From NCBI GenBank assembly GCA_937951455.1, contig CALFBU010000094.1:1-14529 (forward strand): a stretch of 14,529 bases of DNA, given 5' to 3'. The stretch is from an uncultured Rhizobiaceae group bacterium. GTDB lineage: Bacteria; Pseudomonadota; Alphaproteobacteria; Rhizobiales; Rhizobiaceae. Under the pieces are notes generated by a model. It did no database searches. It saw only the letters and a list, made by a program, of their open reading frames with translations, and was not told the origin of the DNA. The translations under genes were made by a program, and so were the position numbers. Positions 6,149 to 14,529 of this stretch are shown here, one piece after another; the stretch's first letter is position 1; every line of letters begins with the position of its first letter.

Positions 6149-6223
6149 TGGTACTCCCTAGGGGAATCGAACCCCTCTTTCCAGGTTGAAAACCTGGCGT
6201 CCTAACCGATAGACGAAGGGAGC
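6149..6223 (-). tRNA. tRNA-Glu (anticodon TTC)
   Basis: Read on the minus strand, the 75-base cloverleaf starts GCTCCCTTCGTC and ends with a GTACCA tail, so CCA is encoded. Acceptor arm GCTCCCT pairs with AGGGAGT (with a G-T first pair). The anticodon stem CCAGG/CCTGG encloses the loop TTTTCAA, giving anticodon TTC. The T arm GGGGTTCGATTCCCC is complete. A strong promoter lies just upstream. Confidence 0.96.
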
Positions 6224-9866: not shown

Positions 9867-9943
<77 letters not shown>

Positions 9944-10363: not shown

Positions 10364-10440
10364 GGTCCCTTAGCTCAGCTGGATAGAGCGTCTGCCTTCT
10401 AAGCAGAATGTCGGAGGTTCGAATCCTCCAGGGATCACCA
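10364..10440 (+). tRNA. tRNA-Arg (anticodon TCT)
   Basis: The 77-base cloverleaf has acceptor GGTCCCT pairing with AGGGATC (one G-T pair) and an encoded ACCA end. The anticodon stem TCTGC/GCAGA encloses CTTCTAA, giving anticodon TCT, which reads AGA/AGG. The T arm is GGAGGTTCGAATCCTCC. Confidence 0.96.
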
Positions 10441-10814: not shown

Positions 10815-11504
10815 TTATGTGTTGTTGACAGTGGGCGCATTGGCAGCGTCGCCGTCATACATAGCGCTGATACGATCAAACCACTTGCCTACGTTTGTGC
10901 TTTCATCGACTGGGCGATAAGCAACAACATCAATCCACTTTAGAACACCAAACAACGTATAGTCTGCATAGGTAGGTGCATCACCGCCGAGGTAATCGCT
11001 TGTGCCTAACGTGGCTTCAAAAACGCCCAGTCCTTTCGCAAGTGCTGCCTTGGCTGCGTCCTTGTCGCCATTATTGATATCGACAAGCTTTTTGCCGAAT
11101 TTGGCTTCACGTGTTTCGATGAAATATGCAGCGCTTTCGTCATCTATGATTTGGGACACGGGATAAATCGCCATGGACACAGCAGTTGCAAAAATCATCA
11201 TGTTGCAAATGTTGCTGACAAGTTGTGCATGCGCTTCGGCTTCCGCGTCTTTCATCAACATCGGCTTGTCGGGGTATTGCGCATCAAGATACTTGGCAAT
11301 CTCCCAACTGTCTGAAACCATTTTGCCATTGTCATAAATTGCAGGAACGGTTTTATGCTCTTTGGTGTCGCGGTCTCTGAACTGCCAGGCAATCGATTCA
11401 AAATCAACGCCCTTGTGCAAGAGCGCCATACGCGTGCGCCAGACGAAGGGGCTGAATTTAATGTCTTTGTTTTCAGCGGCAAGTTCGTAAAATTCAATGG
11501 TCAT
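10815..11504 (-). CDS. Glutathione S-transferase, LigE/LigF-like
   Basis: The 229-residue protein has an N-terminal thioredoxin-like GST domain and a helical C-terminal domain (about 90-215). Key features are 'KFSPFVWRTRMALLHKGVDF' (16-35) with S18 as a likely glutathione-activating residue, the cis-proline 'TVPAIYDNG' (52-60) and 'VSDSWEIAKYLD' (63-74) that binds the gamma-glutamyl part of glutathione. The FSPFxWRTxMAL pattern and SDSWxIAxYLD resemble the beta-etherase-like group (LigE/LigF relatives). That group has broad conjugation, isomerase or thiol-lysis activity, and no lignin role is implied here. It is cytoplasmic. It diverges from the mttB-like gene across 229 bp; a perfect palindrome lies 60 bp before its start, suggesting dedicated control. 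Confidence 0.87.
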   Translation of the reverse strand: MTIEFYELAAENKDIKFSPFVWRTRMALLHKGVDFESIAWQFRDRDTKEHKTVPAIYDNGKMVSDSWEIAKYLDAQYPDKPMLMKDAEAEAHAQLVSNICNMMIFATAVSMAIYPVSQIIDDESAAYFIETREAKFGKKLVDINNGDKDAAKAALAKGLGVFEATLGTSDYLGGDAPTYADYTLFGVLKWIDVVAYRPVDESTNVGKWFDRISAMYDGDAANAPTVNNT

Positions 11505-11563
11505 ATTGGTTTCCGTAATGTGTTGAGTATCAAGAAATCTGTAGCACTTTTCTGGCTCATGCT

Positions 11564-11580
11564 ACGACTAAATTAGTCGT
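11564..11580. promoter_or_regulatory. Perfect 17-bp palindrome, candidate operator
   Basis: ACGACTAA (11564-11571) and TTAGTCGT (11573-11580) are exact inverse complements around one central A. It lies 60 bp before the GST start and 154 bp before the mttB-like start, the right place to overlap a GST promoter. An ACTA-TAGT core recalls sites bound by small winged-helix regulators (MarR or HxlR type), but no such gene is in the window. Confidence 0.6.
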
Positions 11581-11733
11581 GATATAAAGTTTTAAAGAAG
11601 CATTTTGATTGTGCCAATTTAGAGCGATATGTGAAAATATTCTAATACCGCACATGCTGTCGTATTTTTCTGATTGCATTCTGCCAAGACGGTGCGAAAC
11701 TCGTTAAATGTATTGACGTGAATGGGAGAAAAC

Positions 11734-13332
11734 ATGTCCATCGAAGAGATTCAGTCAGAAGACAACGCACCGAAGCGAAGCGCTAGGCGAGGGCGAGGTG
11801 GTGGACGTGCAGGTAACAAGCGCGGGCAGGGTGCGGCGATAAAGCAAATTCCTTGGAGTGTCCCCCAAAATCATGACAAGCCAACCGAGCCACTGCCGCC
11901 GGAAGGTGTTGAGGCCGTCCACAATGCTGCGATGCGTGTGCTAGAGGAAATCGGGATCGAATTTCTAAATCTGGAGGCTGCAGAAATTTTGAAAGCCCAT
12001 GGCGCAGAACTCTCCAACATCACGAAAGAAAGCGCGTTGGTAAAGATGGACCGTGCGATGGTGATGGAAAAATTGAAGACCGTACCTTCGCAATTTACAC
12101 TAACGCCAAGAAATACAGATCGAAAAATTACAATTGGTGGCAATCATATTGTCTTTGGCAATGTGTCTTCGCCACCAAATTATTCAAATCTGGATGAAGG
12201 GCGCAAAGTCGGCAATCGCAAGGCCTATCAGGATTTCATCAAGCTAACGCAATATTTCAATTGTCTGCATTTTGCAGGTGGCTATCCTGTAGAGCCAATG
12301 GATATTCATCCCTCTATTCGCCATCTTGATTGTCTCTATGATAAACTGACGATGACGGATAAAGTCGTCCACGCTTATTCACTTGGCAAAGAGCGTGTCG
12401 AAGACGTGATGGAGATGACGCGCATTGCGGGCGGGCTAACGCATGAAGAGTTTGACGCAACGCCGCGCATGTACACAAACATCAATTCGACTTCGCCGCT
12501 AAAGCACGATCATCCGATGCTGGATGGCTTGATGCGTCTTGCACGACGTGGCCAGCCAACAGTCGTGACGCCGTTTACCTTGGCGGGTGCGATGTCGCCG
12601 ATTACATTGGCAGGGACGGTTGCACAATCGATAGCAGAGGCGCTTATCGCGGTTGTGTTAATACAATGCGTTAATCCAGGGTGTCCTGCAGCGATTGGTA
12701 CATTTTCTTCCAACGTTGATATGAAAACGGGTGCGCCAGCTTTCGGCACACCGGATTACATGCGCACAACGCAAATGACTGGGCAGATGGCGCGTTATTA
12801 CAACATACCGTTAAGAGCATCCAACACATGCGTTGCCAACGCACCTGACAATCAGGCAACTTGGGAAAGTTCTCATTCTTTATTTGCAGCTATGACTTCT
12901 GGCGTGAACATGGTCTATCATGCAGCCGGCTGGCTAGAAGGTGGGCTATGTGCTTCTTATGAAAAATTCATCATGGATTGTGAACAGCTTCAGCAAATGA
13001 TCACTTACATGGACAAGCCTGTTAAATGGGATGAGCAGGAATTGGCACTTGATGCCATGGCAGAAGTAGGTCACGGCGGCCATTTCTTTGGCATTCAGCA
13101 TACGCAAGACAGATACGAAACAGCCTTTTACGATCCTTTCCTCTCTGACTGGTCAAATTTTGAAAATTGGGAAGACAGAGGCGCAGAACTCACAGTAACC
13201 AGAGCCAACAAGATCTGGAAGCAAATTCTCAATGAGTTCGAAGCTCCGCCATTGGACGAAGCCATTCGGGAAGAATTGGAAGCCTTTGTGATCAAGCGCA
13301 AGGAAGAAGGCGGCGCACCGACAGACTTTTAA
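11734..13332 (+). CDS. MttB-superfamily methyltransferase homologue (non-pyrrolysine)
   Basis: The 532-residue protein belongs to the trimethylamine methyltransferase (MttB) family. Such enzymes demethylate quaternary or tertiary amines and pass the methyl group to a corrinoid protein. Visible segments include 'VHNAAMRVLEEIGIEF', 'CLHFAGGYPVEPMDIHPSIR', 'TPFTLAGAMSPITLAGTVAQ', 'GTFSSNVDMKTGAPAFGTPD', 'NAPDNQATWESSHSLFAAMT' and a C-terminal 'EVGHGGHFFGIQHTQDRYET'. There is no in-frame TAG, so no pyrrolysine: it groups with bacterial MttB/MtgB-like enzymes that use substrates such as glycine betaine, or with unassigned ones. The N-terminus is a basic Arg/Gly-rich tail (residues 13-35). An ATG at 11722 is in frame, but GGGAG (11724-11728) lies just before the ATG at 11734, which is chosen. 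No corrinoid protein is visible nearby. The cupin gene follows after 12 bp. Confidence 0.88.
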   Translation: MSIEEIQSEDNAPKRSARRGRGGGRAGNKRGQGAAIKQIPWSVPQNHDKPTEPLPPEGVEAVHNAAMRVLEEIGIEFLNLEAAEILKAHGAELSNITKESALVKMDRAMVMEKLKTVPSQFTLTPRNTDRKITIGGNHIVFGNVSSPPNYSNLDEGRKVGNRKAYQDFIKLTQYFNCLHFAGGYPVEPMDIHPSIRHLDCLYDKLTMTDKVVHAYSLGKERVEDVMEMTRIAGGLTHEEFDATPRMYTNINSTSPLKHDHPMLDGLMRLARRGQPTVVTPFTLAGAMSPITLAGTVAQSIAEALIAVVLIQCVNPGCPAAIGTFSSNVDMKTGAPAFGTPDYMRTTQMTGQMARYYNIPLRASNTCVANAPDNQATWESSHSLFAAMTSGVNMVYHAAGWLEGGLCASYEKFIMDCEQLQQMITYMDKPVKWDEQELALDAMAEVGHGGHFFGIQHTQDRYETAFYDPFLSDWSNFENWEDRGAELTVTRANKIWKQILNEFEAPPLDEAIREELEAFVIKRKEEGGAPTDF

Positions 13333-13344
13333 AGGATTGCGTCT

Positions 13345-13920
13345 ATGAAGTTAACGAAATTATTTTTGGATATTGCTGATGCCCTGAATGGTCCTCTAGC
13401 AATTGAGCAATTCGGTGCGAGTGAATTACGCAAATCCAGTGATTTTGCAGAATACAGCGCAGGGCATACGACACTTGAATCATCCATGATAGAAGTGTTG
13501 TTACAAAAGGATGCAGATCCGGTTTGTAATACAATTTCTGAAATGAATTTACTGTGGCAGCCACCCACAACATCTAATGACCCTGCCTATATCGCTGCGA
13601 GTAAAAGAAAAGTCCACGTTGAGCTTTTAGGTCCTAAAGGTTTGGTGCAATCTGATGTTATCAGGCTTGGGTTGTATGGAATGTATCCAAATTCTGACTA
13701 CGGTATAAGAACACACCCAGCAGAAGAAATATTCGTAATGCTTGCTGGCGAGGCTTTATGGAAAAGAGGGTCTGGTGATTATCTTTTACATAGGGCGGGT
13801 GAGCGATCGCATCATCCCTCGATGCTTCCTCACGCAAATAAAACTGCAAACAAGGCATTCATGTCCGTTTATGTTTGGGCAGGGGATATATCTACCGATA
13901 ACTATGTTTATCAGGGATAA
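13345..13920 (+). CDS. DMSP-lyase-like (DLL) cupin protein
   Basis: The 191-residue protein has a helical N-terminal part and a C-terminal cupin matching the DMSP-lyase family (DddQ/DddW/DddL-like). Key stretches are 'LGLYGMYPNSDYGIRTHPAE' (108-127), EEIFVMLAGEALW (127-139), 'HHPSMLPHANKT' (156-167) and YVWAGDIS (176-183). Aligned by eye with DddQ, H124, E128 and H163 fit the metal ligands and W178 and Y119 conserved active-site residues. However, the second metal-motif histidine is R122 and the DddQ Tyr131 position is F130. DMSP cleavage to DMS and acrylate is therefore possible but not safe to assume; DLL proteins with other functions exist. A strong ribosome site (AAAGGA, 13331-13336) overlaps the mttB stop and places the ATG at 13345, so the two form an operon. 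Confidence 0.8.
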   Translation: MKLTKLFLDIADALNGPLAIEQFGASELRKSSDFAEYSAGHTTLESSMIEVLLQKDADPVCNTISEMNLLWQPPTTSNDPAYIAASKRKVHVELLGPKGLVQSDVIRLGLYGMYPNSDYGIRTHPAEEIFVMLAGEALWKRGSGDYLLHRAGERSHHPSMLPHANKTANKAFMSVYVWAGDISTDNYVYQG

Positions 13921-13955
13921 TAAAATAAAAATTATAAAGTCATATATAACAAAAG

Positions 13956-13990
13956 TTACAAATGTAATTAATGTAAATTACAGTACGTAC
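13956..13990. promoter_or_regulatory. Nested TTACA/TGTAA inverted repeats and GTACGTAC
   Basis: Four half-sites occur in 27 bp: TTACA (13956), TGTAA (13963), TGTAA (13972) and TTACA (13978). They form TTACA-N2-TGTAA, TGTAA-N1-TTACA and the larger TGTAATT-N6-AATTACA dyad (13963-13982), followed by the palindrome GTACGTAC (13983-13990). This lies about 75-110 bp before the aminotransferase start. A multi-site operator is likely; the regulator is unknown. Confidence 0.5.
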
Positions 13991-14062
13991 ATATTTACAC
14001 AAATTTGATATCTTTATTCATCATTGGATTCCATTCTGCTCCCAACACTATGGAGAGATGCA

Positions 14063-14529
14063 ATGATGAAAAATACAAATGGCAAAACAGGACTTTTCAT
14101 TCCAGGTCCGACAAACATTCCTGATAGCGTGCGCCAAGCGCTCAACGTTCCGATGCAGGACATGCGCGCCCCGGACTTTGGCGACCTAACGCTTCCTCTT
14201 TTTGCGGATCTCAAAAAAGTTTTCAAAACTGAAACCGCGGAAGTTTTCATGTTCCCGGGTTCAGGCACTGCGGGCTGGGAATCGTGCCTTTCAAACCTGT
14301 TTAGTGCAGGCGAAAAAGTTCTCATGTCCAGCTTTGGCCAATTCTCTCTCTTGTGGGTAGATATGGCGCAAAGGTTTGGTCTTGACGTGCATCATTGTGA
14401 AGTTGAATGGGGCTACGGTATTCCGCACGCAGAATACCGCGAAATTCTTGAAAAGGACACGAACCGTGAAATCAAAGGCGTCTTCGCTTGTCATAACGAA
14501 ACAGCAACGGGCGTTGCATCAGATATTGC
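14063..14529 (+). CDS. Class V aminotransferase, serine/aspartate-glyoxylate type (partial)
   Basis: The reading frame starts at ATG 14063 (a second ATG follows at 14066) after GGAGAG at 14052-14057 and runs off the right edge, giving 155 residues. It shows GLFIPGPTNIPDSVRQAL (10-27), 'VFMFPGSGTAGWESCLSN' (61-78) with the phosphate-binding GSGT and W72-E73, 'LLWVDMAQRFGLDV' and CHNETATG (143-150), the substrate and cofactor motif. This is the N-terminal half of a PLP-dependent class V enzyme of the AGAT/SgaA group. The FIPGPTNIP opening, the VFMFPGSGTAGWE region and the EWGYGIP-type stretch also resemble BhcA, the aspartate-glyoxylate aminotransferase of the beta-hydroxyaspartate cycle. The usual DHR near residue 33 is DMR here (M34). 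The PLP lysine is outside the window. The gene begins 142 bp after the cupin with its own leader. Confidence 0.83.
   Translation, partial: MMKNTNGKTGLFIPGPTNIPDSVRQALNVPMQDMRAPDFGDLTLPLFADLKKVFKTETAEVFMFPGSGTAGWESCLSNLFSAGEKVLMSSFGQFSLLWVDMAQRFGLDVHHCEVEWGYGIPHAEYREILEKDTNREIKGVFACHNETATGVASDI

Follow-up and report, generated by a model that had tools for sequence, protein, structure and literature searches.

Genes at the mttB locus

The window analysed here is the whole of contig G000:C94 (14,529 bases), part of a metagenome-assembled genome (MAG) of an uncultured Rhizobiaceae bacterium that is 71.7% complete. Its right-hand end carries three genes in one direction: an mttB-family methyltransferase gene, a gene for a cupin resembling dimethylsulfoniopropionate (DMSP) lyases, and the beginning of an aminotransferase gene. 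The most interesting result of comparing this block with its relatives is that two unrelated DMSP-lyase folds, that of the window's cupin and that of a DddP-like M24 metal enzyme, are found in one slot downstream of mttB.

The first gene (11734–13332, + strand) encodes a non-pyrrolysine corrinoid methyltransferase (PF06253, 701 bits) of a subfamily that is sister to canonical MtgB; its open frame spans 11722–13332, with the likeliest start at ATG 11734, giving 536 amino acids without an in-frame stop. The cupin gene (13345–13920, + strand) starts 12 bp past the mttB stop, and its product belongs to the DMSP-lyase-like (DLL) fold (PF16867, DMSP_lyase, 53.3 bits, cut-off 27), R-T-H subtype. A class V aminotransferase gene of the serine-glyoxylate type, of which the 5' part is present, follows on the same strand (14063–14529); its ATG lies 142 bp past the cupin stop, and the contig end truncates it after 155 visible codons. 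The gene identities, spacing and direction given in the original prediction were thus correct and, since four further genomes of the genus show the identical gene order, the block is not a product of chance. No promoter or terminator was found between cupin and aminotransferase: across 11500–14529, promoter-like hits numbered 4 (5.0 in shuffles), and the five terminator-like sites were all on the − strand. Likewise, no riboswitch was found upstream of mttB, an Rfam search of the window at gathering score returning three tRNAs only.

A sister subfamily of MtgB

Among solved structures, the window MttB matches 4yyc (E 2.6e-102) as well as 9yce and 2qne (MtgB; E 8.1e-90 and 9.1e-90). The protein falls short of a pyrrolysine-type trimethylamine MttB: it scores 269.6 bits with model TIGR02369 (cut-off 525), and its gene has neither a pyrrolysine codon nor an in-frame stop. 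Close homologues (clade A, E up to 1e-190) turned up in 38 genomes when 101 relatives, 397 genomes from the order and 385 from the class were searched. A tree was built from the query and 70 other PF06253 proteins, with its root at the three most distant sequences. In this tree, clade A (the query and 40 others) and 18 "B" proteins, which are not monophyletic by themselves, form one group (support 0.991) that is sister to clade C (n = 9). Clade C comprises the closest sequences to an MttB adjoining a homocysteine-methyltransferase-like gene on G000:C227, and was taken as canonical MtgB.

Docking of glycine betaine into D. hafniense MtgB pointed to Tyr94, Asn199, Arg309 and His345 as pocket residues (PMC6855144). 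The latter three are kept in 58/58 sequences of clades A and B, and also in clade C. The Tyr94 position, which is Tyr in 9/9 clade C proteins, is Ser, Ala or Gly in all 57 readable clade A and B sequences (one has a gap); in the window it is Ser145. A second position, 184, chosen by eye and post hoc, is Thr in 9/9 clade C, but Tyr in 39/40 clade A and 17/18 clade B sequences. Given the replaced Tyr94, the window MttB is unlikely to be just another glycine betaine methyltransferase, although this compound is a possible substrate.

The best comparison is with the MtgBCD(E) systems of Ruegeria pomeroyi and Sinorhizobium meliloti. In R. pomeroyi, mutants showed that growth on glycine betaine requires MtgC (a corrinoid protein) and MtgD (a pterin protein), and two PF06253 proteins rise on this substrate (Mausz et al. 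2025, PMC12478193). Several PF06253 genes, up to seven per genome and presumably with diverse substrates, are often present in marine bacteria that have mtgC and mtgD, and the additional copies are suggested to act on other methylated compounds (PMC12478193). The cassette described below would fit an additional copy of this kind. The two systems share a non-pyrrolysine PF06253 protein, a small corrinoid protein (PF02607, found in 10/12 genomes of the window's genus but not in the window's own), a RACo-type activase (11/12) and, in some relatives, a dimethylglycine-dehydrogenase-like partner. Unlike MtgB, the window MttB lies in a paralogous sister clade with an altered Tyr94 position and has no adjoining corrinoid gene; furthermore, its cassette adds a DMSP-lyase-family gene, which the accessible part of PMC12478193 does not mention.

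The slot downstream of mttB

Neighbour searches used a fixed query list, so that further partners may escape them, and the genomes are related, so the counts below are not independent. The names Kbl, Tdh, OafA-type acyltransferase, cobN, cobO, cobyric acid synthase and malate-CoA ligase, as well as the homocysteine-methyltransferase-like and "B12corr" proteins in L044, were assigned by eye from N-terminal sequence and not by a scan.

Downstream of mttB, 10 of the 38 clade-A genomes have a dimethylglycine-dehydrogenase-like gene with flavin adenine dinucleotide-binding and GcvT parts (FAD/GcvT), six a cupin gene and two (G069, G088) a DddP-like M24 gene. G098, in which FAD/GcvT lies behind the cupin, is counted under both; in G130 a DddP-like gene follows after FAD/GcvT, at a distance of 5 kb. 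With an E value of 7.1e-161, the L074 copy of FAD/GcvT matches dimethylglycine dehydrogenase 5l46. Kbl- and Tdh-like genes stand upstream of mttB in 4/38.

DMSP lyases are known with each of two unrelated folds, cupin and M24, and in matching cassettes the cupin and the DddP-like protein occupy one slot. The order mttB, cupin, FAD/GcvT occurs in G098, L074 and L086, and the order mttB, DddP-like, FAD/GcvT in G283, G240 and G108. A run of Kbl- and Tdh-like genes and mttB is followed by the cupin in G098 and by the DddP-like gene in G069. Similarly, a divergent iron-containing alcohol-dehydrogenase-like gene precedes mttB and the DddP-like gene in G088, and mttB and the cupin in L074 (both by scans) and L086 (by eye).

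With the G088 DddP-like protein as query, 56 of 387 order genomes returned hits (E up to 1e-90). Among the best 30 loci, an MttB is found at most 6.5 kb away in 18, immediately upstream in seven and separated by FAD/GcvT in 11; FAD/GcvT is likewise near the DddP-like gene in 18, and both are present in 16. As in DddP, the eight metal-site and catalytic positions compared, Tyr366 and Asp377 among them, are kept in 30/30 proteins; apart from Asp295, Tyr366 and Asp377, the position numbers are ones that we presume to be right. These three are positions named in PMC4108388, which also cites a low DMSP lyase activity measured for one DddP (Km 13.8 mM). The cassette proteins differ from DddP in score, all seven scanned reaching 428–496 bits, below the DddP cut-off of 600 (some have a short N-terminus), and in adjoining mttB and dimethylglycine-dehydrogenase-like genes; the window itself has no DddP-like gene. 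Elsewhere in its genome, on G000:C61 (L244 2112–3386), a protein above the NCBIfam DddP cut-off (737.6 vs 600 bits) is a true DddP candidate separate from the cupin.

These neighbourhoods could simply be an osmolyte island, with MttB and the dehydrogenase-like enzyme serving glycine betaine, the cupin or DddP-like protein serving DMSP or a similar sulfonium, and the genes lying together since these osmolytes arrive together, with no substrate in common. In view of the homology to MtgB and dimethylglycine dehydrogenase, the obvious substrate of the demethylase half is glycine betaine (PMC12478193). The DddP-like proteins retain the DddP positions checked, and the G000:C61 protein makes DMSP use by the window's bacterium plausible. 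Against this stand the six loci given above (G098, L074, L086, G283, G240, G108), where mttB and the dehydrogenase-like gene flank the slot gene, a closer arrangement than an island would require, as well as the MttB pocket, which departs from canonical MtgB at Tyr94, and the low DddP scores of the cassette proteins. We consider such an island rather unlikely.

A separate idea, that the cassettes include a proline-betaine racemase, arose from an enolase-superfamily neighbour in G290, G130, G119 and G156. It was dropped: among solved structures, this neighbour best matches galactonate dehydratase and mandelate-racemase-like proteins, with none betaine-specific by name among the 38 listed.

The cupin

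Residues reported as essential in DddQ are Tyr120, His123, His125, Glu129, Tyr131 and His163 (PMC4437653). The window cupin has Tyr119, Arg122, His124, Glu128, Phe130 and His163 at these positions, keeping the metal-site residues His124, Glu128 and His163 but replacing DddQ His123 and Tyr131. The first replacement is found in 56/56 aligned cupins and the second in 34/56, the window included, which sets them apart from the DddQ, DddW and DddL lyases, as does the mttB neighbour in some lineages. With both residues missing, a lyase step of the DddQ kind may not occur in the window cupin, and action on DMSP, which the original prediction named as one of the options for DLL cupins, appears doubtful on these grounds.

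Alternatively, the cupin may be a bystander: a widespread small metal protein of unrelated function (isomerase, sensor or housekeeping), with the aminotransferase beside it by genus synteny only. Consistent with this, 36 of the 42 cupin loci that our script could read (45 in total) have no adjoining mttB, though at least four of the 36 start within 150 bp of a contig end, and in two genus genomes (G008, G010) an acyltransferase-like gene takes the cupin's place. The cupin is also only 58–65% identical between the window and L036–L038, vs 92–93% for MttB, as expected of a weakly constrained neighbour. A bystander would be unlikely, however, to adjoin mttB in two MttB branches (the genus with L074 and L086, and G098) and to be replaced by a DddP-like gene at the same place. 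A rough binomial calculation for mttB beside six cupin loci, based on all 45 and not on the 42 readable ones, gave 2.5e-7 to 6.5e-3 when between 2 and 13 mttB copies were assumed; it treats related loci as independent and is indicative only. On balance, a bystander role is quite unlikely.

A first scan of the genome contigs with one cupin sequence as query found no relative. Two further DLL cupins (L040 12001–12567; L041 6548–7195) lie in a cobalamin-like neighbourhood on G007:C14, one adjoining a cobyric-acid-synthase-like gene and the other between cobN- and cobO-like genes. This context may link DLL cupins to corrinoid metabolism.

Arrangement within the genus

We compared 12 genomes of the genus (G000–G011), of which 11 carry a window-clade mttB (it is missing from G002). 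The order mttB, cupin, aminotransferase is found in 5/12, namely G000 (aminotransferase cut), G001, G005, G006 and G011, and was seen in this genus only. In G008 and G010 (2/12), one or two OafA-type acyltransferase-like genes (L133 7271–9277; L134 8097–12046) replace the cupin between mttB and aminotransferase. The remaining four (G003, G004, G007, G009) have an mttB with neither cupin nor aminotransferase beside it, although the G007 contig ends 206 bp downstream of mttB. The three-gene block is therefore a genus-level arrangement in which the cupin is optional. The cupin is, on sequence identity, also the fastest-evolving gene of the block: its identity to the window is 56–65% (L036–L039), against 83–93% for MttB and 88–94% for the four listed aminotransferase matches.

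Past the aminotransferase, genus relatives have a gene for a 145-amino-acid protein (L037 13327–13764; no Pfam or NCBIfam match), a ScfR-type regulator and, on the opposite strand, a phosphonate-binding (PhnD)-like protein. The 145-amino-acid protein was found in 9/101 genomes searched, every one in the genus. The original prediction had looked to this side for bhcB/C/D, corrinoid and folate genes, and held that an unrelated pathway there, or lack of conservation of the mttB-cupin pair, would refute its cassette. As other genes lie there, half of that has come about. The genes and their order are real, but the three-gene pathway built on them is local, and partly wrong with respect to BhcA and DMSP activity.

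A second stretch in the same MAG (G000:C50; L035 1–10080) carries a cut cupin, an aminotransferase, the 145-amino-acid protein and ScfR. Its cupin shares 99% identity with the G011 cupin and 59% with that of the window, and the stretch may represent a second strain, contamination or a duplication.

The aminotransferase

The aminotransferase had been described as of the SgaA/BhcA type; were it BhcA, the block could feed the beta-hydroxyaspartate cycle. BhcA is indeed the top NCBIfam model: the window fragment scores 201 bits with it (and 19.2 with PF00266, under the Pfam cut-off of 21.5), while full-length orthologues reach 583.3 and 587.8 bits with NF045640. These nevertheless miss the cut-off of 650, and PF14031, which we take to be the BhcC family, was found in 0/12 genus genomes (four of them at least 90% complete) vs 2/14 control genomes. 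The sole solved match of a full-length orthologue at E <1e-40 is serine-glyoxylate aminotransferase 6pk1 (E 3.9e-124). BhcA and the beta-hydroxyaspartate cycle can thus be set aside; the proposal is largely refuted and highly improbable.

The match to 6pk1 recalls the serine cycle, and homologues with 61–62% identity in G009 and G095 precede a malate-CoA ligase beta-like gene, which also speaks against BhcA. Unlike in the serine cycle, the five block-carrying genomes (72–94% complete) show malate-CoA ligase beta matches of 41–46% or none; a close homologue occurs in G007 and G009 only, of the 12 genus genomes (the query was named by eye). Beside mttB, the aminotransferase may handle the amino group or C2 products.

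A predicted demethylation cassette

Protein families, gene order, the shared slot and the pocket changes are direct observations. The arrangements seen across several families of the order suggest a broader cassette that combines MttB with a slot for DMSP-lyase-family genes, and we tentatively predict that the window is a local version of this wider alphaproteobacterial cassette, stripping methyl groups from an onium zwitterion; this is the reading that we favour, though at slightly less than even odds. Degradation of a methylated zwitterion had been proposed for the window before, and gains from the dehydrogenase-like neighbour of some MttB relatives and from DMSP-lyase homologues of two folds; the companion claim of one three-gene pathway unit was not supported, given the restriction of the block to part of one genus.

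Judging from the families, the MttB-family protein would take a methyl group from a zwitterion, which would be a quaternary ammonium or possibly a sulfonium compound, and hand it to a small corrinoid protein encoded elsewhere, from which it would reach tetrahydrofolate. Where it stands beside mttB, the dimethylglycine-dehydrogenase-like enzyme would take the next methyl group; it is not beside mttB in the window's genus. In what is the least certain step, the DLL cupin or the DddP-like enzyme would act on the same substrate class, probably by lyase-type cleavage. In the window's genus, the aminotransferase that follows could pass on amino and C2 products.

Several observations weigh against the cassette in addition to the two replaced DddQ residues. 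Neither cupin, DddP-like gene nor FAD/GcvT lies directly downstream of mttB in 21/38 clade-A genomes, and a cupin does so in only 6/38. Within the genus, the cupin is not beside mttB in 6/11 genomes with the window-clade gene; from the cupin's side, mttB adjoins in 6/42 readable loci. Furthermore, MttB is absent within 6.5 kb in 12/30 DddP-like loci (one at a contig end), and 14/18 clade-B MttBs were fetched for a nearby DddP-like gene, so selection accounts for part of the link between clade B and DddP-like genes. The window mttB has no corrinoid gene nearby, and PF02607 was not found in its own, 71.7% complete genome. Lastly, the dehydrogenase and the lyase slot are not reconciled on one substrate. 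Elimination of the DMSP type requires a leaving group beta to the carboxylate, and glycine betaine has none, which leaves a beta-onium acid as substrate, another activity for the slot enzyme, or a mere DMSP/betaine island.

A bolder form of the prediction is that R-T-H DLL cupins and DddP-like M24 proteins, though non-homologous, have the same function in a single unrecognised pathway centred on a new MttB subfamily and the dimethylglycine-dehydrogenase-like enzyme. We regard this as unlikely. If true, the native substrate of parts of both DMSP-lyase superfamilies would be a nitrogen or other onium zwitterion, such as a beta-alanine-betaine-like compound, and not DMSP. The cassette pinpoints genes for joint testing, with a bearing on the substrates of the extra PF06253 copies and on the low DMSP activity measured for a DddP. 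In a literature search that left most subscription papers outside, we found no paper joining MttB with a DMSP lyase and a cupin, or a DMSP lyase-like protein with a DLL cupin. There are papers that mention DddP together with a trimethylamine methyltransferase or a dimethylglycine dehydrogenase.

Other features of the window

The three tRNA genes of the window are those for tRNA-Glu (6149–6223), tRNA-Pro (9867–9943) and tRNA-Arg (10364–10440). At 1305–2330, the window encodes a GlxA-type regulator (DJ-1 plus AraC helix-turn-helix domains), which scores 117.7 bits with the GbdR choline-metabolism model (cut-off 480) and 229.7 bits with the FtrA model (cut-off 425).

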